The notes beneath the pieces were generated by a model. It made no database searches. It saw nothing but the letters and a program-made list of their open reading frames with translations, and was not told where the DNA came from. From NCBI GenBank assembly GCA_018241405.1, contig JAFEDY010000012.1:1-64000 (forward strand): a stretch of 64,000 nucleotides of DNA. Direction: 5' to 3'. The position numbers were made by a program, and so were the translations under genes. Origin of the DNA: Pseudomonadota bacterium. GTDB lineage: Bacteria > Pseudomonadota > Gammaproteobacteria > Burkholderiales > Burkholderiaceae_C. Positions 8,986 through 63,366 of the stretch are shown piece by piece (the first letter of the stretch is position 1; every line of letters begins with the position of its first letter).

Positions 8986-10458
8986 ATGGACAAGGCATGG
9001 CATGGGCGTACGGCAACCGCACTGGCCGCCTGCATGGTGGCATGTGCCGGCGCGTGGTGGCTGGCCCACGCGCGGCTGCAGCAGGTGCAAGCCGACTTCG
9101 AAACCGATGCCCGCATCATTCACCGCCTGCTGAGCCAGCGTGCCGTGCAGCACGACGCGGTGCTGGCCACGCTGGCCCTGCTGCAGCCGCGCGCGGACGC
9201 AGGGGCCGATGCGGCGCTGGAGCGCCTTCCGGCCCTGTACCCGCAGATCACCGCCGTGCTGCGGCGCTCGGACGACACCCCCTGGCCAGCCGCCGAGCGC
9301 ACGCCACTGGATGCCGCCGAGGCCCGCTCGCGCGCATTGCACCGTGCCGAGCTGGCGGCGCCCGAGCTGGCCGAGGGCCGCTACAGCGTGGTGCTGGCGT
9401 CGCCGCAGGGCAGCCATGCGCTGCAGATCGACCTGCGGGCCGCCGTGCCGTGGAACGAATGGCCCATGGACCCTGCCACGAGCCCGGTGCGCGTGGCGCT
9501 CGAACATGCAGGCCAGGCCTATGTGGTGCAGCCGGGACGACCGCAGTCGCGGGGCTGGAGATTCGACTTTCGCAAACGCCTGGCCTCGGCCAGCCAGCCG
9601 CTGGACGTGGTGGCGGAGCGCGGCGTGGGCTGGGCCGAGCTGCCCTGGTGGCGCATGCTGCTCTGGTGTGCGCTCGTCGCCGCCGCCTGGACCGCGGGCC
9701 AGGCCCTGTGGCGCCAGCGCATTGCGCGCCGCCGTGCCGAAGAGCTGCTGCGCCTGGGCCAGGTGGCGCGCCTGAACACGCTGGGCGAGCTGGCCGCAGG
9801 CATGGCGCATGAGCTCAACCAGCCGCTCACCGCCGTGCTGGCCAATACCCAGGCTGCAGGTCGGCTGCTGACGGAAGCGCCGCCCGAACTGGACATGGCG
9901 CGCATGGCAATGGACCGCGCCGTGGAGCAGGCGCGGCGCGCGGCGAACACCGTGGGCCGGCTGCGCAGACTGGTGGAACGCCCCGCGCAGGGACAGCCGC
10001 CCAAGCCGCTGCTGCTTGACGACGCCGTGCGCGACGCGCTGCACCTGCTGGAGCCCGAATGCCGCAAGGCGGGCGTGCTGCCCCAGCTGCAGGCCCCGGC
10101 CGAGGCGCTGACCGTGCTGGCCGACCCCGTGGCGCTGCAGCAGATCCTCTACAACCTGCTGATGAACGCGCTGCAGGCGCTGGCCCTGGTCCCCCCCGCC
10201 GAGCGCCGCCTGCTGCTGCGCCTGGCACCCACCGGCGACGCCGCCCATGTGCAACTGCACATCGAGGACAGCGGCCCGGGCGTTCCCGCCGAGGTGCTGG
10301 CGCATTTGTTCGAGCCCTTCACCACCACGCGCCAGGGCGGCCTGGGCCTGGGCCTGACGCTGTGCGACAGCCTGGCGCAGGCCATGGGCGCCCAGCTCGC
10401 CTGCGCGCCACGCCAGGGCCGTGGTGCCTGCTTCGTTCTGACTATGGCCGCTGCCTGA
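8986..10458 (+). CDS. Membrane sensor histidine kinase (DctB/FixL-like catalytic core)
   Basis: 490 residues. A membrane segment near residues 8-27 and another near 222-240 bracket a periplasmic sensor region of about 190 residues with no recognised fold by eye. The kinase core follows: H-box MAHELNQPLTA with phospho-accepting His275, N-box LYNLLMNALQAL, and ATP-lid glycine boxes EDSGPGVP and GGLGLGLTLC. It ends 30 bases before a FixJ-type response regulator and is almost certainly its partner. The input signal is unknown. Confidence 0.9.
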   Translation: MDKAWHGRTATALAACMVACAGAWWLAHARLQQVQADFETDARIIHRLLSQRAVQHDAVLATLALLQPRADAGADAALERLPALYPQITAVLRRSDDTPWPAAERTPLDAAEARSRALHRAELAAPELAEGRYSVVLASPQGSHALQIDLRAAVPWNEWPMDPATSPVRVALEHAGQAYVVQPGRPQSRGWRFDFRKRLASASQPLDVVAERGVGWAELPWWRMLLWCALVAAAWTAGQALWRQRIARRRAEELLRLGQVARLNTLGELAAGMAHELNQPLTAVLANTQAAGRLLTEAPPELDMARMAMDRAVEQARRAANTVGRLRRLVERPAQGQPPKPLLLDDAVRDALHLLEPECRKAGVLPQLQAPAEALTVLADPVALQQILYNLLMNALQALALVPPAERRLLLRLAPTGDAAHVQLHIEDSGPGVPAEVLAHLFEPFTTTRQGGLGLGLTLCDSLAQAMGAQLACAPRQGRGACFVLTMAAA

Positions 10459-10488
10459 GAACCGGCCCATGACTTCCATCTCCGCGCG

Positions 10489-11118
10489 ATGAACGACGAC
10501 ACCCCGCTCTCCCCCGTGGTCCACCTCGTGGACGACGACGCCGCCGTGCGCGACGGCCTGGGCCTGCTCATCGGCACCGTGGGCCTGCGCGTGCAGCCCT
10601 GGGCCGATCCGCTGGCCTTCATGGCGGACTTTGACCGCTCCTGTGTCGGCGCCATCGTGCTCGACATGCGCATGCCCGGCACCAGCGGGCTGTCGCTGCT
10701 CGAACAGCTGATAGCGCAGGGCGTGGACCAGCCCGTGATCATGCTCACGGGCCATGGCACGGTGGAGATGTGCCGGCGCGCATTCAAGGCCGGGGCGGCC
10801 GAATTTCTCGAAAAGCCCGTGGACGACGAAACGCTCATCGAGGCCCTGCAGACCGCGGTGCGCCAGCATGTGCGCTCGCGCGCGCGCCACCACGCAGACC
10901 AGCAGGCGCGCGAGCGCTTTGCCATGCTCTCGGGCCGCGAGCGCGAGGTGCTGGGCCTGATCGTCGAGGGACTGACCAACAAGGAGATCGGCCGCGCGCT
11001 GGCGCTCTCGCCGCGCACCATAGAGACGCACCGCGCCAACCTCTTTGCCAAGCTGGGCGCCGAATCGCTGGCCCAGCTGATCCGCCGCTACGCGGCGCTG
11101 GTGGATGCGGCTGCGTAG
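10489..11118 (+). CDS. FixJ-type response regulator (receiver plus LuxR helix-turn-helix)
   Basis: 209 residues. An N-terminal receiver domain (about 1-125) contains the acidic pair in VHLVDDDAAV, phospho-acceptor Asp59 in IVLDMRMPG, and Lys in FLEKPVDD. The C-terminal LuxR/NarL helix-turn-helix reads LSGREREVLGLIVEGLTNKE followed by IGRALALSPRTIETH. Phosphorylation by the kinase at 8986-10458 should activate DNA binding. The adjacent GlcG-like gene (11232) is a plausible target, but no operator was identified. Confidence 0.92.
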   Translation: MNDDTPLSPVVHLVDDDAAVRDGLGLLIGTVGLRVQPWADPLAFMADFDRSCVGAIVLDMRMPGTSGLSLLEQLIAQGVDQPVIMLTGHGTVEMCRRAFKAGAAEFLEKPVDDETLIEALQTAVRQHVRSRARHHADQQARERFAMLSGREREVLGLIVEGLTNKEIGRALALSPRTIETHRANLFAKLGAESLAQLIRRYAALVDAAA

Positions 11119-11231
11119 TTCTACGGAGCGGCGCGCGTAGGCGCACGCATGGCGGGGCAGGCCACTGCCCCTTACAGTTGCGCCCACGGTCGGCCACACC
11201 TGATGCCGACCGCAACCTCCAGGAGAACACC

Positions 11232-11726
11232 ATGGCTCGACTCGCCAACGCCACCCTCGCCACCACCCTTGCGCTTCTGTGCGGCGCCGCCAGCGCCGAG
11301 GCCGTGCGCACGGAGCGCAACATGACCCTCGAACTCGCCAATCAGATCGCTGCCCAATCCGTGGCGGCCTGCACCGCCGGTGGCTACAACGTGGCGGCCA
11401 CGGTCGTCGACCGCGCCGGCACCGTGCGCGCCGTGCAGCGCGCCGACAATGCCGGCCCGCACACGCTGGAATCCAGCCGCCTGAAGGCCTACACCTCTGC
11501 GTCGACCAAGACCACCTCTCAGGCCATGATGGAGGGCGCGCAAAAGAACCCCGGCGCGGCCAACCTGGTGTACATCCCCGGTTTCCTGCTGGTCGGCGGC
11601 GGCGTGCCCGTGAAGGTGGGCAACGAGGTCATCGGCGCCGTGGGCGTGGCCGGCGCTCCGGGCGGCCATCTGGATGAACAATGCGCCACGGCCGCATTGG
11701 CCAAGGTGCAGGACCAGCTCAAGTAA
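11232..11726 (+). CDS. GlcG/HbpS-family haem-binding protein, exported
   Basis: 164 residues with a Sec-type signal peptide (about residues 1-23, cleavage after ASA). The mature part matches the GlcG/HbpS (DUF336) fold: [33 protein letters not shown], and near the end [15 protein letters not shown]. Members bind haem or act as accessory sensor proteins to two-component systems, as HbpS does for SenS/SenR in Streptomyces. AGGAG at 11221-11225 sits 6 bases before the ATG. The gene follows a kinase/regulator pair, which makes a similar accessory role conceivable but unproven. Its 3' end overlaps convergent dtd by 8 bases. Confidence 0.85.
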
Positions 11727-55014: not shown

Positions 55015-56154
55015 ATGATCATTTCCTCCAGCGCCGACTACCGCGCAGCGGCGCAGAAGTTCCTGCCCCCCTTCCTGTTCCACTACATCGACGGCGGCGC
55101 CTACGCCGAGCAGACGCTCAAGCGCAACGTCGATGACCTGGCCGCGGTGGCGCTGCGCCAGCGCGTGCTCAAGGATATGAGCCAGCTCGACACCAGCATC
55201 GAGCTGTTCGGCGAGAAGCTATCCATCCCCGTGGCGCTGTCGCCCGTGGGCCTGACCGGCATGTACCGCCGCCGTGGCGAGGTGCAGGCCGCGCGCGCCG
55301 CCGACGCGCACGGCATTCCGTTCACCATGTCCAGCGTCTCGGTCTGCCCGATCGAAGAGGTGGTGCCGACGATCAAACGGCCGATGTGGTTCCAGCTCTA
55401 TGTGCTGAAGGACCGCGGCTTCATGCAGAACGCGCTGGAGCGCGCCCAGGCCGCAGGCTGCACCACCCTGGTGTTCACCGTGGACATGCCCGTGCCCGGC
55501 GCGCGCTACCGCGACGCGCATTCGGGCATGAGCGGCCCCAACGCCGCGCTGCGCCGCTATGTGCAGGCCATGCTGCACCCGCGCTGGGCGCTGGACGTGG
55601 GGCTGCTCGGGCGCCCGCACGACCTGGGCAACATCTCGGCCTACCGCGGCAGCCCCACGGGCCTGGCGGACTACATGGGCTACCTGGGCGCGAACTTCGA
55701 CCCGTCGATTTCGTGGAAAGACCTGGAGTGGATACGCGCCTTCTGGAAGGGGCCCATGGTCATCAAGGGCATCCTCGACCCCGAGGACGCCAGGGACGCC
55801 GTGCGCTTCGGCGCCGACGGCATCATCGTCTCCAACCACGGCGGGCGCCAGCTCGACGGCGTGCTGTCCTCGGCGCGCGCGCTGCCGGCGATTGCCGATG
55901 CGGTGAAGGGCCAGATCAAGATCCTGGCCGACTCGGGCATACGCAACGGCCTGGACGTGGTGCGCGCCATCGCCCTGGGCGCCGACTGCGCCATGATTGG
56001 CCGCGCCTACATCTACGCCCTGGCCGCCGCGGGCGAGGCCGGCGTCAAGCAGCTGCTGGAGCTGCTGGAGAAAGAGATGCGTGTGGCCATGACGCTGACC
56101 AGCGTGGCCCGTGTGGCCGACATCACGGGCGAGCTGCTGGCGCGCGAAGCATGA
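55015..56154 (+). CDS. lldD: FMN-dependent L-lactate dehydrogenase
   Basis: 379 residues (E. coli LldD 396). Membrane-associated flavoenzyme oxidising L-lactate to pyruvate and passing electrons to the respiratory chain. [20 protein letters not shown] is the canonical start; [17 protein letters not shown] and [14 protein letters not shown] bind FMN; the catalytic His lies in [13 protein letters not shown], and [20 protein letters not shown] follows. Starts 10 bases after lldR. Its stop overlaps an ATG that appears to be the start of a decayed D-lactate dehydrogenase gene. Confidence 0.95.
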
Positions 56155-56766: not shown

Positions 56767-58599
56767 ATGAGCAACATTTCCGGCGACGAAACGCCAGGGC
56801 AAAAGGCGACGAAGATCCTGTTGGTAGAGGACAGCTTCGCAAATCGCGACATGCTGACCCGGCGGCTGACACGCCGCGGCTTCACGGTCTGCAGCGCCGC
56901 CGATGGCGCCACCGGCGTCGCCATGTCGGTCTCGGAGTTGCCTGACCTCATCCTGATGGATGTGGCCCTGGGCGAGATGGACGGCTGGCAGGCAACCCGG
57001 CTCATCAAGGCCGACGCCCGGACCCAGGGCATCCCCATCATTGCCTTGACCGCTCACGCGCTTGCCAGCGATAGGGAACACAGCATCGAGGTGGGCTGCG
57101 CCGACTTCGACACCAAGCCCGTCGATCTGTCGCGCCTGCTGGGAAAGATCGAAGGCAGCCTGGCGAGGGCGGCACAGACAGCCGATTCCAACCATCGTGA
57201 CTCCGACGCTCTTCAAGAACATCTCAAAGGAGTGAAATCCATGTCGAAGCTTGATCCGGTTGCAGCGCTGACAGGCAGCGTGCGCGACTTCCGTGAACTC
57301 CAGGGGACCGACCTGATGGCCCGCGTCGGTTCCTTCTACGAATGGCAGGAACTGCGGCGCCAAAGCAGCCTGTGGCCGTATTCGAGAGCGACACAAGAGG
57401 CGCCTTTGTCCGTCTGCACGGCACTCGACGACAACGGACAACAGTTCACCGGCCTGAACTTCGGCACACAGGACTACCTCGCCCTGTCGTCGCACCCCGC
57501 CATCAAGGAGGTGGCCAAGGCGGTAATCGACGAGTACGGGGTGCACAGCGCTGGCTCATCGGCCCTGGCGGGCAACACCAAATATTCGCTGGTGCTGGAG
57601 CAAACGATCTCCGACTTCCTCCAGTTGGAACACACGACACTCTACCCAACGGGCTGGGCTGCCGGGTACGGTGTCATCAAGGCTCTCGTACGGCCGACGG
57701 ACCACATCGTGATGGATGGCCTCGCCCACGCCTGCCTGCAGGAGGGCGCGTACTCGGCAACCTCGAACGTGCATCTGCATGGCCACCTCAACCTCGAATC
57801 GGTACGCCGACACCTGAGACGGGTTCGCGCCAAGGACACGACCAACGGCATCCTCGTGGTGACGGAAAGCCTGTTCTCCATGGATTCAGACACGCCGGAC
57901 CTGCGGACGCTGCAAAGCCTGTGCGACGAGTACGACGCGACGCTGCTCGTCGATGTGGCCCATGACCTGGGCGCCATGGGGCCGGGCGGCAGAGGCTTCA
58001 TAGGCGGGCAGGACATGCTGGGCAAGGTCGATATCGTCATGGGGAGCTTCTCCAAGACCTTCGCGTCGAACGGCGGTTTCGTCGCCAGCAACTCGCCCGC
58101 CGTCAAGCAATACCTCAAGTACTACGGCTGCACGGCCACGTTTTCCAACGCACTGTCTCCGGTTCAGGCCGCCACCGTCACCAAGGCATTCGACATCATC
58201 AAGTCCGAAGAAGGCCTGCGACTTCGCACGGTGCTCAGGCAACGCATAGAAGAAATGCGCGAGGCCTTGACCCAGGCAGGCCTGCAGCACACGGGCAATC
58301 CCTCTCCCATCGTTCCGGTCCGCGTGGGCGACGAAGCATTGGCGCGCCTCGTGAGCCGGCGCCTGCCGGCGCTGGAGGTCATCGCCAACCTGGTCGAGTA
58401 CCCCGCCGTCGCCAAGGGTGATGCCCGCCTGCGCCTGCAGATGATGCCGACGCACAGCCTGGAAAACGTGCGGATGCTGGCCTCAAGGCTGCGCACGGCC
58501 ATCGATCACGCACAAATCGAGCATGTGCGCCATCGCGCCGCGATCACTGGGGTCACCCGCTCGGTCGCCACTGATACCGCGGCAGCCCAAGCGGCGTGA
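56767..58599 (+). CDS. Receiver domain fused to a PLP-dependent alpha-oxoamine synthase
   Basis: 610 residues. Residues about 15-135 are a CheY-type receiver: LLVEDSFANRDML, phospho-acceptor Asp65 in LILMDVALGEMDGW, ALTAHA and Lys in DTKPVDLS. Residues about 160-580 are a class II-type PLP aminotransferase of the alpha-oxoamine synthase group (CqsA/LqsA, KBL, serine palmitoyltransferase): GTQDYLALSSHP, AGSSALAGNTKYSLVLEQ, His321 in DGLAHACLQEG, VDVAHDLGAMGPGGRGF, and Schiff-base Lys430 in MGSFSKTFASNGGFVAS. These enzymes condense an amino acid with an acyl-CoA or acyl-ACP. First of four genes with two kinases and a receiver-GGDEF-EAL protein. An internal ribosome-binding site at 57226 could yield the synthase alone. 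The product is unknown; the SFSKTFASNGG loop looks closer to serine palmitoyltransferase than to CqsA. Confidence 0.88.
   Translation: MSNISGDETPGQKATKILLVEDSFANRDMLTRRLTRRGFTVCSAADGATGVAMSVSELPDLILMDVALGEMDGWQATRLIKADARTQGIPIIALTAHALASDREHSIEVGCADFDTKPVDLSRLLGKIEGSLARAAQTADSNHRDSDALQEHLKGVKSMSKLDPVAALTGSVRDFRELQGTDLMARVGSFYEWQELRRQSSLWPYSRATQEAPLSVCTALDDNGQQFTGLNFGTQDYLALSSHPAIKEVAKAVIDEYGVHSAGSSALAGNTKYSLVLEQTISDFLQLEHTTLYPTGWAAGYGVIKALVRPTDHIVMDGLAHACLQEGAYSATSNVHLHGHLNLESVRRHLRRVRAKDTTNGILVVTESLFSMDSDTPDLRTLQSLCDEYDATLLVDVAHDLGAMGPGGRGFIGGQDMLGKVDIVMGSFSKTFASNGGFVASNSPAVKQYLKYYGCTATFSNALSPVQAATVTKAFDIIKSEEGLRLRTVLRQRIEEMREALTQAGLQHTGNPSPIVPVRVGDEALARLVSRRLPALEVIANLVEYPAVAKGDARLRLQMMPTHSLENVRMLASRLRTAIDHAQIEHVRHRAAITGVTRSVATDTAAAQAA
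57226..57243 (+). promoter_or_regulatory. Internal ribosome-binding site and start codon within the receiver-synthase gene
   Basis: AAAGGAG (57226-57232) is followed after 8 bases by an in-frame ATG (57241-57243) that would start the synthase at MSKLDPVAALTGSVRDF. This is a better initiation region than that of the full gene at 56767, so the synthase may be translated both fused and separately. Confidence 0.6.
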
Positions 58600-58604
58600 G
58601 GGAC

Positions 58605-60002
58605 ATGCAAGTGGTACTCACCCATCGCCTGATCCAAACGGTGGACTGGTTCATTCCGGTCGGGTTGCAAAGGAGCACCGCGACGCATTGGCGGGCAAGA
58701 ATCTTTGTCATCAGTCATGTGCTGGGGCCCTTCAGTGCCGTCGCCATCCTGGGGTACCTGCATCAGGTGCTGACGGTGCACGACTGGGCGTTCTGGACCA
58801 TTTGCATCCTGTGCGCATCGTTCTGGGCTTTGCCGTTCGTACTCAGGCTGGCGGGGGATCTGTTCAGGCCCGCCCTCTACTCCTTCTGCGCCCTGACCAG
58901 CATCAGTGTCTTCGGGTCCTATTTCTATGGCGGCGTGAGTTCCCCGCTCCTGCCGTGGTTCCTGACGGCGCAGATGATCGGCTTCTTCTATCTGAGTGAC
59001 CGGCCGCGTCTTGTGCTCGGCATCATCGGCGCGAACCTGGCGGCCTTTGCCGCAGCCTATTTCATCAACGGCCAGTTCCCCGACCTGGTATCGCTTGAAG
59101 ACCTTTCCACCGCCGGCATGATTTCCGCCTGCGCGGCCACGCTCTACAGCTCGATGATGGCGATCTACTATGCCTACGTCATGGTCGAACATTCGGCGCT
59201 GCAGGAGGAAATCAAGAACCACCTGGAAACCGCCGCCAGGCTGCGGATCGCCAAGCACGAGGCAGAACGTGCCAACGAAGCCAAGGCCGTCTTCCTGGCG
59301 AAGATGAGCCATCAATTGCGGACCCCTCTGAACGCCATCATCGGCTACAGCGAAATCCTGCTGGAGGACGCCGAGGCCGACGAGCCGGGGGCGGATGGGG
59401 AGGAACTGCGATCCATCAACCACGCCGGCCGCCACCTCTTGTCGCTGGTCTCGGACGTACTGCACATGCCCAAGACAGAGGCGGATTCCGACGCCATCGA
59501 TATCAAGCTCGACACCGTCGATCTCGACCGCTGCCTGGAGGAACTGTCCGCTACCTGCCGGACCCTGGTGGCGAGCAATGGGAACCGGCTTGCCTTCGAC
59601 AAGCCCGGCGAACTGGGATCGATCCAGACCGATGAGATCCGGCTGCGGCAGATCCTGATCAACCTGCTCGGTAACGCAGGAAAATTCACCCGCAACGGTT
59701 CCGTGGTGCTGCGCGCGCGGCGCGCAACCGAAGGCGAGTGCGAACAGGTGCTCATCTCCGTGCAGGACACGGGCATTGGCATTTCCGCCGAGGCGATCCC
59801 GAAGCTGTTCAAGAACTTCAACCAACTGAATGCGGGCCAGTTTGCGGGAAGCGGGCTGGGCCTGGCCGTGAGCCAGAAGCTGGCACACCTGCTGGGCGGC
59901 GATATTTCGGTGACAAGCCAGTTGCACCGCGGATCGGAGTTCACGCTTCGACTGCCAGCGATGGCAACGACGAATGCACCGGCGATGGCCGCCACGGCGT
60001 GA
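58605..60002 (+). CDS. Polytopic membrane histidine kinase 1 of the synthase cluster
   Basis: 465 residues. About six predicted membrane helices (residues 25-190) form the sensor, with FIPVGLQRSTATHWRARIF and FYGGVSSPLLPWFLTAQMIG as notable stretches. A short coiled coil (LQEEIKNHLETAARLRIAKH) leads to the kinase core: AKMSHQLRTPLNAIIGYSE with His236, LINLLGNAGKFT, DTGIGISAEAIP and GSGLGLAVSQKLAHLLGG. The ATG at 58605 follows GAGG closely; a GTG at 58596 overlapping the previous stop is an alternative. No receiver or periplasmic domain is attached. Confidence 0.9.
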   Translation: MQVVLTHRLIQTVDWFIPVGLQRSTATHWRARIFVISHVLGPFSAVAILGYLHQVLTVHDWAFWTICILCASFWALPFVLRLAGDLFRPALYSFCALTSISVFGSYFYGGVSSPLLPWFLTAQMIGFFYLSDRPRLVLGIIGANLAAFAAAYFINGQFPDLVSLEDLSTAGMISACAATLYSSMMAIYYAYVMVEHSALQEEIKNHLETAARLRIAKHEAERANEAKAVFLAKMSHQLRTPLNAIIGYSEILLEDAEADEPGADGEELRSINHAGRHLLSLVSDVLHMPKTEADSDAIDIKLDTVDLDRCLEELSATCRTLVASNGNRLAFDKPGELGSIQTDEIRLRQILINLLGNAGKFTRNGSVVLRARRATEGECEQVLISVQDTGIGISAEAIPKLFKNFNQLNAGQFAGSGLGLAVSQKLAHLLGGDISVTSQLHRGSEFTLRLPAMATTNAPAMAATA

Positions 60003-60033
60003 CAGGCCCCACGAACACGTACGGGTGAATGCC

Positions 60034-61464
60034 ATGAGAAACCGATTCGGAAACCTGGCACCAAGACTGAACATGTCGGTTGACTGGTTCATCCCCATAG
60101 GCTTGAAGCAGTCGCGAGACACCCTGCAGGGCATGCGCATGTTCCTGTTCAGCCATTTTTTCGGTCCCTTTCTGGGGAACACGGTCACGCTGTCGATGCT
60201 GTATCTCGGCGCGAAGGCCGACCTCTCCTGGTGGATACTGTTCTTCGCAGTGTCGGGCTTCTGGATTTATCCGATCCTGCTGCGGCTGACGGGCCGGTAC
60301 CTGCCCCTGGCGTTGCTCTCTATCGAAGAACTTCTGTTCTGCATTTTCTGGGGCTCCTATCAGTACGGTGGCATCAGCTCGCCGATCATGCCGTGGTTGG
60401 TCACCGTTCCACTGCTGGCCTTCTTCTATCTGCCCGAGCGCTCTACGCGGATCATCGTCGCCGTGCAGATCGTCGCCAACCTCTTGCTGTTCTATGGCAT
60501 ATATGCCGTACTGGGGTTCCGCGAAGCGGTATCGTCTGACGGCCTGGTCGTCCTCGGCCTGATATCGACCCTCTGTGCCAGCGTCTACGTCTCGATGATG
60601 GCACTCTACTTCGCGAGCATCGTGTATTCGCAAGGCGAACTCGAACAGGAGATCAGGCAACACAAGGCGACCGAGCAGCAGTTGCTGGACGCCACCGACC
60701 AGGCACAGCGCGCACTGCTGGCCAAGTCGGTGTTCCTCGCCAAGATGAGCCATGAGCTGAAGAACCCGCTCAACGCCATCATCGGCTACAGCGAACTCCT
60801 CATCGAGGAAGCCGACGCGGCAGATGCACAGAAGCGCAAGGACCTGACGTCGATCGAAGGCGCAGGCCACAGGCTGCTGGGGCTGATCGACAACCTCCTC
60901 GAGCTCTCGAAGCTCGAAGCCGGAAGGGTGGAGGTCAACGCCAGGGACATCGATTTCGCCGCGTGGTTCGAGGAGCTGGCGGCCCGCAGCGGCCCATCGA
61001 TTACCGCCAATCGCAACGAGTGGATCGTGCAGGCGCCAGGCGCCGGGCGCATGGTCTGCGACGTGCAGATACTGCAACGCGTGGTCGAAGGCCTGTTGAG
61101 CAACGCCGCCAAGCACACCAAGAACGGACGCGTCACGTTCTCTGCCTGTGCGCATGCCGATGGCTGGATCCTGACGATCAAAGACACCGGTGCAGGGATA
61201 CCGAAGGCACGCATGGCCAGCCTGTTCGAGACCTTCGGCAGTTCTGAAGACGAAACGTCGAGCAGGTACGGGGACGAGGCCGGCCTCGGGCTTCCGCTGG
61301 CCTATCGGTACTGCCAATTGATGGGCGGCACGCTGTCCGTGTACAGCGAGGTCGGCGTGGGCACCCGGGTCACCGTTACTTTGCCGGCACAAGCGCGCGC
61401 CGCCTCGAAGTCTCTCGCCGCACCCGCTGCACCCCTGATCCCGACACCGATGTTGACACCTTAG
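60034..61464 (+). CDS. Polytopic membrane histidine kinase 2 of the synthase cluster
   Basis: 476 residues. Paralogue of the preceding kinase: SVDWFIPIGLKQSRDTLQ and YGGISSPIMPWLVTVPLLAF align with VDWFIPVGL and YGGVSSPLLPWFL. About six membrane helices, a coiled coil (ELEQEIRQHKATEQQLLDAT), then AKMSHELKNPLNAIIGYSEL with His240, SNAAKHTKNGRV, DTGAGIPKARM and AGLGLPLAYRYCQLMGG. The conserved sensor suggests both kinases see related signals or form heterodimers. ATG at 60034, 31 bases after kinase 1. Confidence 0.9.
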   Translation: MRNRFGNLAPRLNMSVDWFIPIGLKQSRDTLQGMRMFLFSHFFGPFLGNTVTLSMLYLGAKADLSWWILFFAVSGFWIYPILLRLTGRYLPLALLSIEELLFCIFWGSYQYGGISSPIMPWLVTVPLLAFFYLPERSTRIIVAVQIVANLLLFYGIYAVLGFREAVSSDGLVVLGLISTLCASVYVSMMALYFASIVYSQGELEQEIRQHKATEQQLLDATDQAQRALLAKSVFLAKMSHELKNPLNAIIGYSELLIEEADAADAQKRKDLTSIEGAGHRLLGLIDNLLELSKLEAGRVEVNARDIDFAAWFEELAARSGPSITANRNEWIVQAPGAGRMVCDVQILQRVVEGLLSNAAKHTKNGRVTFSACAHADGWILTIKDTGAGIPKARMASLFETFGSSEDETSSRYGDEAGLGLPLAYRYCQLMGGTLSVYSEVGVGTRVTVTLPAQARAASKSLAAPAAPLIPTPMLTP

Positions 61465-61473
61465 GCGGTACCG

Positions 61474-63366
61474 ATGAACGCACACCACTCCATCCCGCAA
61501 CCGGCGATCGGCCATTCCCTCGACGGCAAGCCAAGCGCGGCCAATGAAGAAAAACCGCGCCTGCTCATCGTCGACGACGTCTTCGAGAACCGCGAAATAC
61601 TGAGGCGCCGCTTCCAGCGCCAAGGCTTTGATGTGACCGACGCCGGCGGCGGGATAGAAGCGCTGGATGTGCTGGAGCGCGAGGCGTTCGATCTCGTCCT
61701 GCTGGACATGATGATGCCCGACTTGAGTGGGCTCGAAGTGCTGGCGCATATCCGCTCCAAGCACTCGCAGGGTTCGCTGCCGGTCATCATGGTCACCGCC
61801 AAGACACAGAGCGAAGACGTCGTCGAGGCCTTGAACCACGGCGCCAACGACTACATCACGAAGCCGGTTGACTTCTCGATCGCGCTGGCCCGCGTCGTCA
61901 CGCAGGTCGAACGACGGCGTGCGGAGCTGAAGATCCACCAGATGAACGAGGCGCTTGCCCGGGCCAACGAGGCGCTCGAACGCCGGGTTGCCGACCGGAC
62001 CAAGGATCTCGTTCATGTCAATCAACAGCTTCGCAGCGAGATAGAGCAGCGCGAGCGGACGCAGGCGACGATCACGCACCTGGCCCACCACGACGCGCTG
62101 ACGGGTCTTGGCAATCGCCTGCTGTTCCACAAGGAGCTTGGCGATGCGCTGGCGCACCGACAAAGGCATGGCGGCGAGCTGGCCGTCCTGTTCATCGACC
62201 TGGATGGCTTCAAGGCCATCAACGACACGCTCGGCCATGCAACCGGAGATTTGTTGCTCAAGCACCTGGCCACACGCCTGCGCAACACGCTGCGCGAAGG
62301 CGACAAGATCGGACGGCTGGGCGGCGACGAGTTCGCCATCATCCAGTTCGGCGCAGGACAGCCGAACGAAGCCGCGGCCCTTGCCAAGCGCTTGATCGAG
62401 ACGATTCAAGTCCCCTTCAGCGTCGATGGCCAAAGTCTTGTCGTCGGCGCCAGCATCGGCATTGCGCTGGCGGGGGGTGAGTACCAGGACTCCGCACAGT
62501 TGCTCAGGGCTGCCGACCTGGCGATGTACCGAGCGAAGACGGAAGGACGCGGTCGCTTCCTGTTCTTCGAAACCGACTTCGACCGACAGGTCAAGGAACG
62601 TCGCGAGCTCGAAGTCGCCCTGCGTACCGCCGTCGAACAGGACGCGCTCGAGATCCATTACCAGCCCCAGGTCAACCTGCAGACCGGTCGCATCAGCGGG
62701 TTCGAGGCGCTGTCGCGCTGGCAGGATCCGCAACGCGGCTACGTGCCGCCGAACGTGTTCATCACGCTGGCGGAGGAGATCGGCCTGATCGGTGTCATTG
62801 GCGAGCGGATACTCAAGCGCGCCTGCGCCGAGGCAGCAAGCTGGCCACCGGAGACCACCGTCGCCGTGAACCTGTCCGCCGCGCAGTTCCAGCGCGGTGA
62901 CCTGGTATCCGTGGTGAAGGAGGCCCTTGCCGCTTCAGGGCTGGAGCCGGGACGGCTGGAGGTGGAGATCACCGAGTCGATCTTTCTCCAGGGCAGCGAA
63001 TCGAATCTTGAGGTTCTCAGTCAACTCGGTGCGCTCGGCGTCAAGATATCGATGGACGATTTCGGCACAGGCTATTCGAGCCTGAGCTATCTGCGCAGCT
63101 TTCCGTTTCACAAGATCAAGATCGATAGATCCTTTGTCGGCGACCTGCCGGACGGGCAGAGCAGCGTTGCCATCGTGCGCGCCGTCTGCGGGCTGGCGCG
63201 CAGCTTCGGCGCGGCGACGACGGCCGAAGGCGTCGAGACCGAAGGCCAGCTCACGCATATCCGGACCGAGGGATGCACCGAGGTACAGGGCTATATCTTC
63301 AGCAGGCCGGTACCTGCCGACCAGATTTCAGCGCTACTGGCAAGATCGCTTGCGCCATCAACGTAG
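61474..63366 (+). CDS. Receiver-GGDEF-EAL response regulator (c-di-GMP turnover)
   Basis: 630 residues. A receiver domain (about 28-150; LLIVDDVFENREIL, phospho-acceptor Asp78 in LVLLDMMMPDLSG, Lys in YITKPVDF) is followed by a coiled coil, a GGDEF domain with intact GGDEF (283-287), and an EAL domain with FEALSRW (Glu411), NLSAAQF, EVEITESIF, DDFGTGYSSLSYL and KIKIDRSF. Both cyclase and phosphodiesterase motifs are complete, so the direction is presumably set by phosphorylation. Starts 9 bases after kinase 2 and is the natural output of the two kinases. Confidence 0.92.
   Translation: MNAHHSIPQPAIGHSLDGKPSAANEEKPRLLIVDDVFENREILRRRFQRQGFDVTDAGGGIEALDVLEREAFDLVLLDMMMPDLSGLEVLAHIRSKHSQGSLPVIMVTAKTQSEDVVEALNHGANDYITKPVDFSIALARVVTQVERRRAELKIHQMNEALARANEALERRVADRTKDLVHVNQQLRSEIEQRERTQATITHLAHHDALTGLGNRLLFHKELGDALAHRQRHGGELAVLFIDLDGFKAINDTLGHATGDLLLKHLATRLRNTLREGDKIGRLGGDEFAIIQFGAGQPNEAAALAKRLIETIQVPFSVDGQSLVVGASIGIALAGGEYQDSAQLLRAADLAMYRAKTEGRGRFLFFETDFDRQVKERRELEVALRTAVEQDALEIHYQPQVNLQTGRISGFEALSRWQDPQRGYVPPNVFITLAEEIGLIGVIGERILKRACAEAASWPPETTVAVNLSAAQFQRGDLVSVVKEALAASGLEPGRLEVEITESIFLQGSESNLEVLSQLGALGVKISMDDFGTGYSSLSYLRSFPFHKIKIDRSFVGDLPDGQSSVAIVRAVCGLARSFGAATTAEGVETEGQLTHIRTEGCTEVQGYIFSRPVPADQISALLARSLAPST

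Follow-up and report, generated by a model that had tools for sequence, protein, structure and literature searches.

A conserved gene module of a receiver-linked alpha-oxoamine synthase, two membrane histidine kinases and a receiver-GGDEF-EAL protein in Burkholderiales

Introduction

The closest described systems are Lqs (LqsA-LqsS-LqsR) and Cqs (CqsA-CqsS), in both of which a synthase of the alpha-oxoamine synthase (AOS) fold goes with a membrane histidine kinase, Lqs having a receiver protein as well. Clusters of lqsA-lqsS, some of them with lqsR, have been reported from Ralstonia, Nitrococcus, Burkholderia and Polaromonas (PMC3376566). Here we describe a different combination of such parts in a stretch of 64,000 nucleotides from a Burkholderiales genome (assembly GCA_018241405.1, contig JAFEDY010000012.1), hereafter called the window. 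It encodes a receiver fused to a synthase of the AOS fold (REC-AOS), two kinases (HK1 and HK2) and a receiver-GGDEF-EAL protein (RGE). Unlike the synthases of Lqs and Cqs, which make alpha-hydroxyketones (AHK), the module synthase belongs to a separate clade and scores below the AHK cut-off, and the sensor has no detectable similarity to four sequences of the CqsS/LqsS type. The module also differs in having two kinases and a GGDEF-EAL output inside the operon, and a receiver that is either part of the synthase or encoded next to it (LqsR itself was left out of this comparison). No receiver-controlled AOS was found among the matches listed in our searches of the open-access literature, which for one search were 20 of 6,414 papers.

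Results

A tightly spaced gene unit with conserved synteny

The original prediction, made from the letters of the window, described four closely spaced genes on one strand, in which a receiver with Asp65 was joined to a pyridoxal phosphate (PLP) enzyme, two kinases lacked attached receivers and the last gene encoded a receiver-GGDEF-EAL protein. Open reading frames (ORFs) and Pfam domains agree with all of this:

56767-58599, forward strand: REC-AOS, 610 amino acids, receiver fused to an AOS of an uncharacterized clade (structure model, pLDDT 88)
56815-57150, forward strand: receiver domain of REC-AOS, residues 17-128 (Response_reg, PF00072, 77.7 bits), phospho-acceptor Asp65 as counted in the sequence
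57226-57243, forward strand: AAAGGAG and an in-frame ATG (57241, codon 159) inside REC-AOS, a predicted internal start
57454-58491, forward strand: PLP-dependent synthase core of REC-AOS, residues 230-575 (Aminotran_1_2, PF00155)
58596-60002, forward strand: HK1, 468 amino acids from a GTG start, polytopic sensor with HisKA and HATPase_c (Pfam)
60034-61464, forward strand: HK2, 476 amino acids from its ATG, the sensor type of HK1 with HisKA and HATPase_c (Pfam)
61474-63366, forward strand: RGE, 630 amino acids, Response_reg, GGDEF and EAL (Pfam)

Along the four genes, the spacing is a 4-base overlap, a 31-base gap and a 9-base gap, and Pfam finds no receiver in HK1 or HK2. At the level of sequence, the locus has the parts of a two-component system, namely HisKA/HATPase kinases with the His and receivers with the Asp. 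RGE keeps the motifs of cyclic di-GMP (c-di-GMP) enzymes (GGDEF, EAL, DDFGTG, EGVET, VNLS and EITES), and the retention of GGDEF and EAL motifs therefore predicts that both synthesis and breakdown of c-di-GMP are possible.

Synteny in relatives, which the prediction had proposed as a check, was found. Nine loci of the window type extend far enough past the synthase to be compared (the window and L009 to L014, L038 and L039), and the order receiver, synthase, HK1, HK2, RGE is present in seven of them (the window, L010 to L014 and L038); in L012 and L014, the contig ends within RGE. L009 stops inside HK1, the HK2-type sensor of its genome lying on another contig, and the ninth locus, L039, is considered in the Discussion. 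Identical contigs were counted once (L009 with L019 and L040, L012 with L110), and L016, cut by a contig end, was not counted. The window-type loci are from metagenome-assembled genomes (MAGs) labeled Burkholderiales, except that of L014, which is labeled Acidobacteria and possibly mis-binned; the genomes with L038 and L039 belong to the same genus and family as the window.

A second class of loci, probably alphaproteobacterial and related to the window at the level of the phylum only, has the parts in another arrangement, with HK1-RGE running in one direction and HK2-receiver-synthase in the opposite one. All five parts stand together in 6 of its 11 genomes (L103, L190, L191, L194, L195 and L196) and four of the five in 3 more (L192, L193 and L197), while the remaining two genomes, both of one genus (G477 and G599), have receiver-HK2-HK1-RGE in one place and the synthase elsewhere. 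Identity between L103 and the window is 72% for the receiver, 60% for the synthase, 43% for the sensors, 62% for the RGE receiver and 54% for GGDEF-EAL. The four genes are a real conserved module, beyond chance, because the same order recurs in six other loci and the parts recur in 11 genomes of the second class.

The 5' neighbors in the window are a gene for a GntR-type regulator (Pfam) and lldD (55015-56154; NCBIfam NF033901, 748.6 bits), and an Hsp90 gene (Pfam) follows RGE on the opposite strand. Since the flanking ORFs vary among the loci of relatives, as judged by eye, we take the four genes as the unit. In L153 (2302-13522) and L154 (6188-18637), receiver-HK2-HK1-RGE lies near genes for an acyl carrier protein, a FabA-like protein and a ketoacyl synthase (identified by Pfam on L153 only).

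The receiver is tied to the synthase, fused or adjacent

Receiver and synthase form one frame in the window, L038, L010 and L009. The fusion is nevertheless not essential to the system, because four related loci (L011 to L014), examined at the DNA level, encode the receiver in a gene of its own next to the synthase gene. Of the receiver control of the synthase that had been proposed for the window, what is supported is that the two are tied together, fused or adjacent. In L012 to L014, the 3' end of the separate receiver gene overlaps the synthase gene by 14 bases in a different frame; in L011, the receiver gene stops immediately ahead of the synthase ATG. All four split synthase genes begin at the position that matches the internal ATG of the window at 57241. 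As AAAGGAG and ATG are kept where the split genes start, the window gene may also yield a free synthase from this predicted start.

The receiver of REC-AOS is 66 to 84% identical to the receivers of the module loci compared. Among the best 120 homologs, a ranking that favors full-length matches, 105 carry a receiver and 15 do not, a neighboring receiver having been read for only one of the latter (P0110, which is L011). On a quick tree of these homologs, the fused state changes at least eight times, some of which may be MAG errors. Receivers 59 to 62% identical to the window's were also met in G080, where they adjoin kinase-type genes, and in G107, where one of them stands alone; the stretches read around them contained no clade synthase and these candidates were dropped.

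The synthase belongs to a clade of its own

By its fold and its PLP-site residues, the synthase of REC-AOS is a member of the AOS superfamily. Its structure model matches serine palmitoyltransferase (SPT), KBL, BioF, ALAS and CqsA, and Tyr237, Asp317, His321, Asp396, His399, Lys430 and Arg556 are common to the AOS families compared. While it shares fold and catalytic residues with BioF, KBL, SPT and ALAS, it has Gln235 where those mostly have Asn and is further distinguished by His260, Asp400, Thr431, Asn435, Glu544 and Met560. The module synthases form a separate clade at 99 to 100 support, and the receiver fusion is a further difference from those enzymes.

All curated model cut-offs are missed. 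The best model is that of BioF (TIGR00858, 261 bits against a cut-off of 426), those of KBL give 230 and 197 bits (NF005394 and TIGR01822, cut-offs of 460 and 493), and the synthase lies outside both clades; its distinctness from KBL and BioF, on which the original prediction had staked its case, held on the tree. The kinship with CqsA and LqsA suggested there is not supported: the AHK model (NCBIfam NF005526), with its cut-off at 428 bits, gives 172 and comes eighth, after BioF, SPT, KBL and ALAS models, whereas six AHK members found with it in other genomes score 482 to 584 bits. AHK sequences form their own clade at 100, with the module synthases in another, and we reject membership of the CqsA/LqsA family on both score and clade. 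With a support of only 28 for their grouping, this tree neither shows nor rejects a sister relation between the two, and the approximately unbiased test gave P values of 0.19, 0.36 and 0.39 for grouping the module clade with SPT, BioF and KBL, respectively.

A regulated lipid pathway would give the module another purpose, with kinases that sense the state of the membrane or its redox balance and switch a sphingoid-like or other amino-ketone lipid, c-di-GMP changing in parallel and no signal passing between cells. We regard this as rather unlikely. The SPT models (NCBIfam) give 206, 232 and 144 bits against cut-offs of 500, 640 and 670, and the SPT sequences are another clade. Proteobacterial SPT genes are reported to co-occur with genes for an acyl carrier protein and an acyl coenzyme A synthetase (PMC9386255), but Pfam found neither among the four module and three flanking genes, the rest of the genome not having been searched; moreover, the neighborhood of fatty acid genes mentioned above was met in a single genus.

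One clade member matches 4,152 proteins at an E value of 1e-60 or better, several clade synthases being named glycine C-acetyltransferase or similar by their sources, and thousands of synthases with uncharacterized products are likely to belong to the clade. Its members occur in other contexts. P0177 and P0205 are fused to FAD-dependent oxidoreductase domains. In L015 (9998-14703; a MAG labeled Deltaproteobacteria), the synthase carries a fused cyclic-nucleotide-binding domain, and its neighbors are a receiver-GcvH protein and a symporter of the sodium:alanine type; the nucleotide-binding domain is present in 24 of 120 clade proteins among the matches listed, the query included. L104 (4619-10408) and L105 (4005-9876), of one genus, have a lone synthase right after an RND-type efflux pair, made of a membrane-fusion protein and a pump (Pfam on L104 only). 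Other stretches with a lone synthase (L037, L109 and L111 to L114) showed no shared neighbors by eye in their ORF lists, except for two genomes of one genus. AHK-type synthases that exceed the cut-off, accompanied by genes that by eye look LqsS-like and receiver-like, were seen in L121 and L124, one of them from the family of the window and the other from a different family of its order.

The sensor and the complementary kinase changes

The polytopic sensor shared by HK1 and HK2 has no Pfam match at an E value of 0.1, and Foldseek against the PDB gave no match at 0.001 or better, which does not show that the fold is new. The HK1 sensor is modeled as a bundle of six to seven helices (pLDDT 90); a simple hydropathy scan at a chosen threshold counted three membrane helices in HK1, five in HK2 and six in each L103 kinase. 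Both sensors conserve a YGG(V/I)SSPxxPW stretch, whose GG-SP part may resemble the quinone-site motif of RegB. A sensor of this type, joined to GGDEF-GGDEF-EAL, lies directly upstream of a clade synthase in L107 (6151-10231), from another family of the order.

New-chemistry quorum sensing would have a secreted alpha-aminoketone or lipid-like signal bound by the two kinases, with the receiver of the synthase as feedback. Synthase, membrane sensors and output do travel together, the AHK systems offer a precedent in which an AOS product is an autoinducer read by a membrane kinase (PMC3376566), and the synthase gene follows an efflux pair in L104 and L105. However, only one genus shows this efflux link, the AHK clade does not include the synthase, and comparison of the sensor with the CqsS/LqsS type gave an hhalign probability of 1.2%, based on only four sequences named by their position beside AHK synthases. 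As neither kinship with CqsA/LqsA nor similarity to their sensors is supported, a role in cell density remains an idea, and we give quorum sensing a low probability.

The two kinases carry complementary changes. In eight of eight window-type loci, HK1 has the H box SHQLRTP, in which the acidic residue next to the His is missing, and a normal G2 box (GSGLGL in the window, first Gly kept), and HK2 has an H box with the acid (HELKNP, within SHELKNP in the window) and an altered G2 box that is one residue longer. The latter reads GDEAGLGL in L038 and the window (YGDEAGLGL there) and DEVRLGL or DKVRLGL in the other six. In 10 loci of the second class, all 20 kinases keep the acid after the His and 19 of them also have GxGLGL, the exception being SAGLGL in HK2 of L191; L190 was excluded from this count for its broken HK1 frame, both of its kinases reading HE. 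The acidic residue next to the His is reported to be required for the kinase, and not for the phosphatase, activity of HisKA proteins, and Thr/Asn for their phosphatase activity (PMC3510030). Reading the complementary changes in this light, we infer that HK1 cannot efficiently label its own His and that HK2 binds ATP poorly, so that the two would make one working kinase together and may work only as a pair.

Sensor and synthase co-occur even when unlinked

Co-occurrence was examined with a sensor profile (A1) in two families. The genomes drawn for synthase and sensor in each family were taken as the same, on the basis of equal totals and listed handles. Weak sensor matches (E values from 9.3e-10 to 1.7e-15) were not counted; these were in G573, G1130, six genomes of the G547 family and a second stretch of G621. 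Among the 104 genomes of the G477 family (synthase at an E value of 1e-80 or better, sensor at 1e-8 or better), the synthase is present in 8 and the sensor in 8, of which 7 are strong (two copies each, the best at 2.5e-69 or better) and 1 is weak (G1130, 9.3e-10). All seven genomes with a strong sensor, from four genera, have the synthase (Fisher test, P = 3.8e-10, a statistic that ignores kinship). Sensors and synthase lie on one contig within a few kilobases in six of them, G477 being the unlinked case. The synthase genome without a sensor (G519) has a 45% identical synthase with an internal stop codon.

Strong sensors are present in 3 of the 105 genomes of the G547 family (G547, G1179 and G1200), all 3 with the synthase, and weak ones in 6. 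Two of the five synthase genomes (G1150 and G1180, 48 to 50% identity) have no sensor, and neither G1130 nor the six weak-sensor genomes are among the synthase genomes. Phylum-wide, 6 of 299 genomes (window's included) have the sensor and 5 of these 6 the synthase; four genomes tested with a window-type synthase have the sensor.

These distributions bear on whether the genes are merely neighbors transferred together, the synthase arm and the c-di-GMP arm not being biochemically coupled. The module is indeed patchy, a search of 398 family genomes having found a synthase of at least 78% identity in 5 (window's included), and the ORFs around it vary from locus to locus, by eye. Yet co-occurrence holds when the genes are unlinked, the order is reshuffled with most members kept, and the receiver is fused to the synthase, all of which makes such a history highly improbable.

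Discussion

We consider it fairly probable that the genes form a two-armed two-component module, in which the kinase pair is predicted to phosphorylate two receivers, one switching the synthase and the other changing c-di-GMP. Besides the conserved order, the co-occurrence, the receiver fused or adjacent to the synthase and the kinase changes, the comparable designs of L107 and L015 speak for this reading. The cue would be membrane-borne or hydrophobic and be read by the polytopic sensor with its YGG(V/I)SSPxxPW stretch. In the window's lineage, the two kinases would act as a pair, with the ATP-binding domain coming from HK1 and the phosphorylatable histidine from HK2. Contact with the phosphorylated receiver would set the activity of the synthase, in cis for the fused protein of the window and in trans at the split loci. 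The product that the synthase is predicted to form, an alpha-aminoketone condensed from an amino acid and an acyl thioester, may be the very cue that is sensed, which would close a loop. One sensed cue would thereby switch the production of a small molecule and change c-di-GMP. Compared with response regulators with enzymatic outputs, RGE is such a protein, while the output of REC-AOS is a predicted PLP-dependent acyl-condensing enzyme.

Several observations weigh against this two-armed scheme. What the receiver controls may not be catalysis but, for example, location or a partner. L039 (synthase, HK1, HK2 and RGE) has no receiver and lacks the start of the synthase domain; its synthase (9648-11321, reverse strand) starts about 50 domain residues late, behind about 150 unrelated residues, and appears to be a decayed or misassembled copy. 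In the second class, no close receiver was found in L192 and L197, and L193 has no RGE and an interrupted receiver frame. All 19 rows of the sensor profile come from loci found through the synthase, and the family centers G477 and G547, though not the other genomes, were picked because they have both genes. The sensor is absent from eight of eight tested genomes with a lone or more distant clade synthase (G490, G519, G618, G035, G729, G902, G948 and G805); therefore, the enzyme also works outside the module, and the module accounts for one part of a larger clade of synthases. Regarding the kinase pair, the HK2 lid of the window and L038 keeps AGLGL, with only the first Gly replaced and one residue inserted, which on its motif is a milder form of the change; because of this, and of SAGLGL in L191, HK2 may still bind ATP.

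A bolder version of the two-armed module would be a new class of circuit, in which half-disabled kinases, as an obligate pair, read a hydrophobic alpha-aminoketone from the very synthase that they switch through its fused receiver and pass the signal on to c-di-GMP; this we think doubtful, at about one chance in a few. The Legionella Lqs system is tied to c-di-GMP via LvbR. A link from quorum sensing to c-di-GMP is for this reason not new as such, and here it would lie inside one operon.

If the two-armed module works as proposed, phosphorylation by a two-component system, and not transcription, would directly govern a PLP-dependent acyl-condensing enzyme, which would thereby be coupled to c-di-GMP. 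The complementary changes of HK1 and HK2 make an obligate kinase pair directly testable, and the module provides a first handle on the products of the clade synthases.

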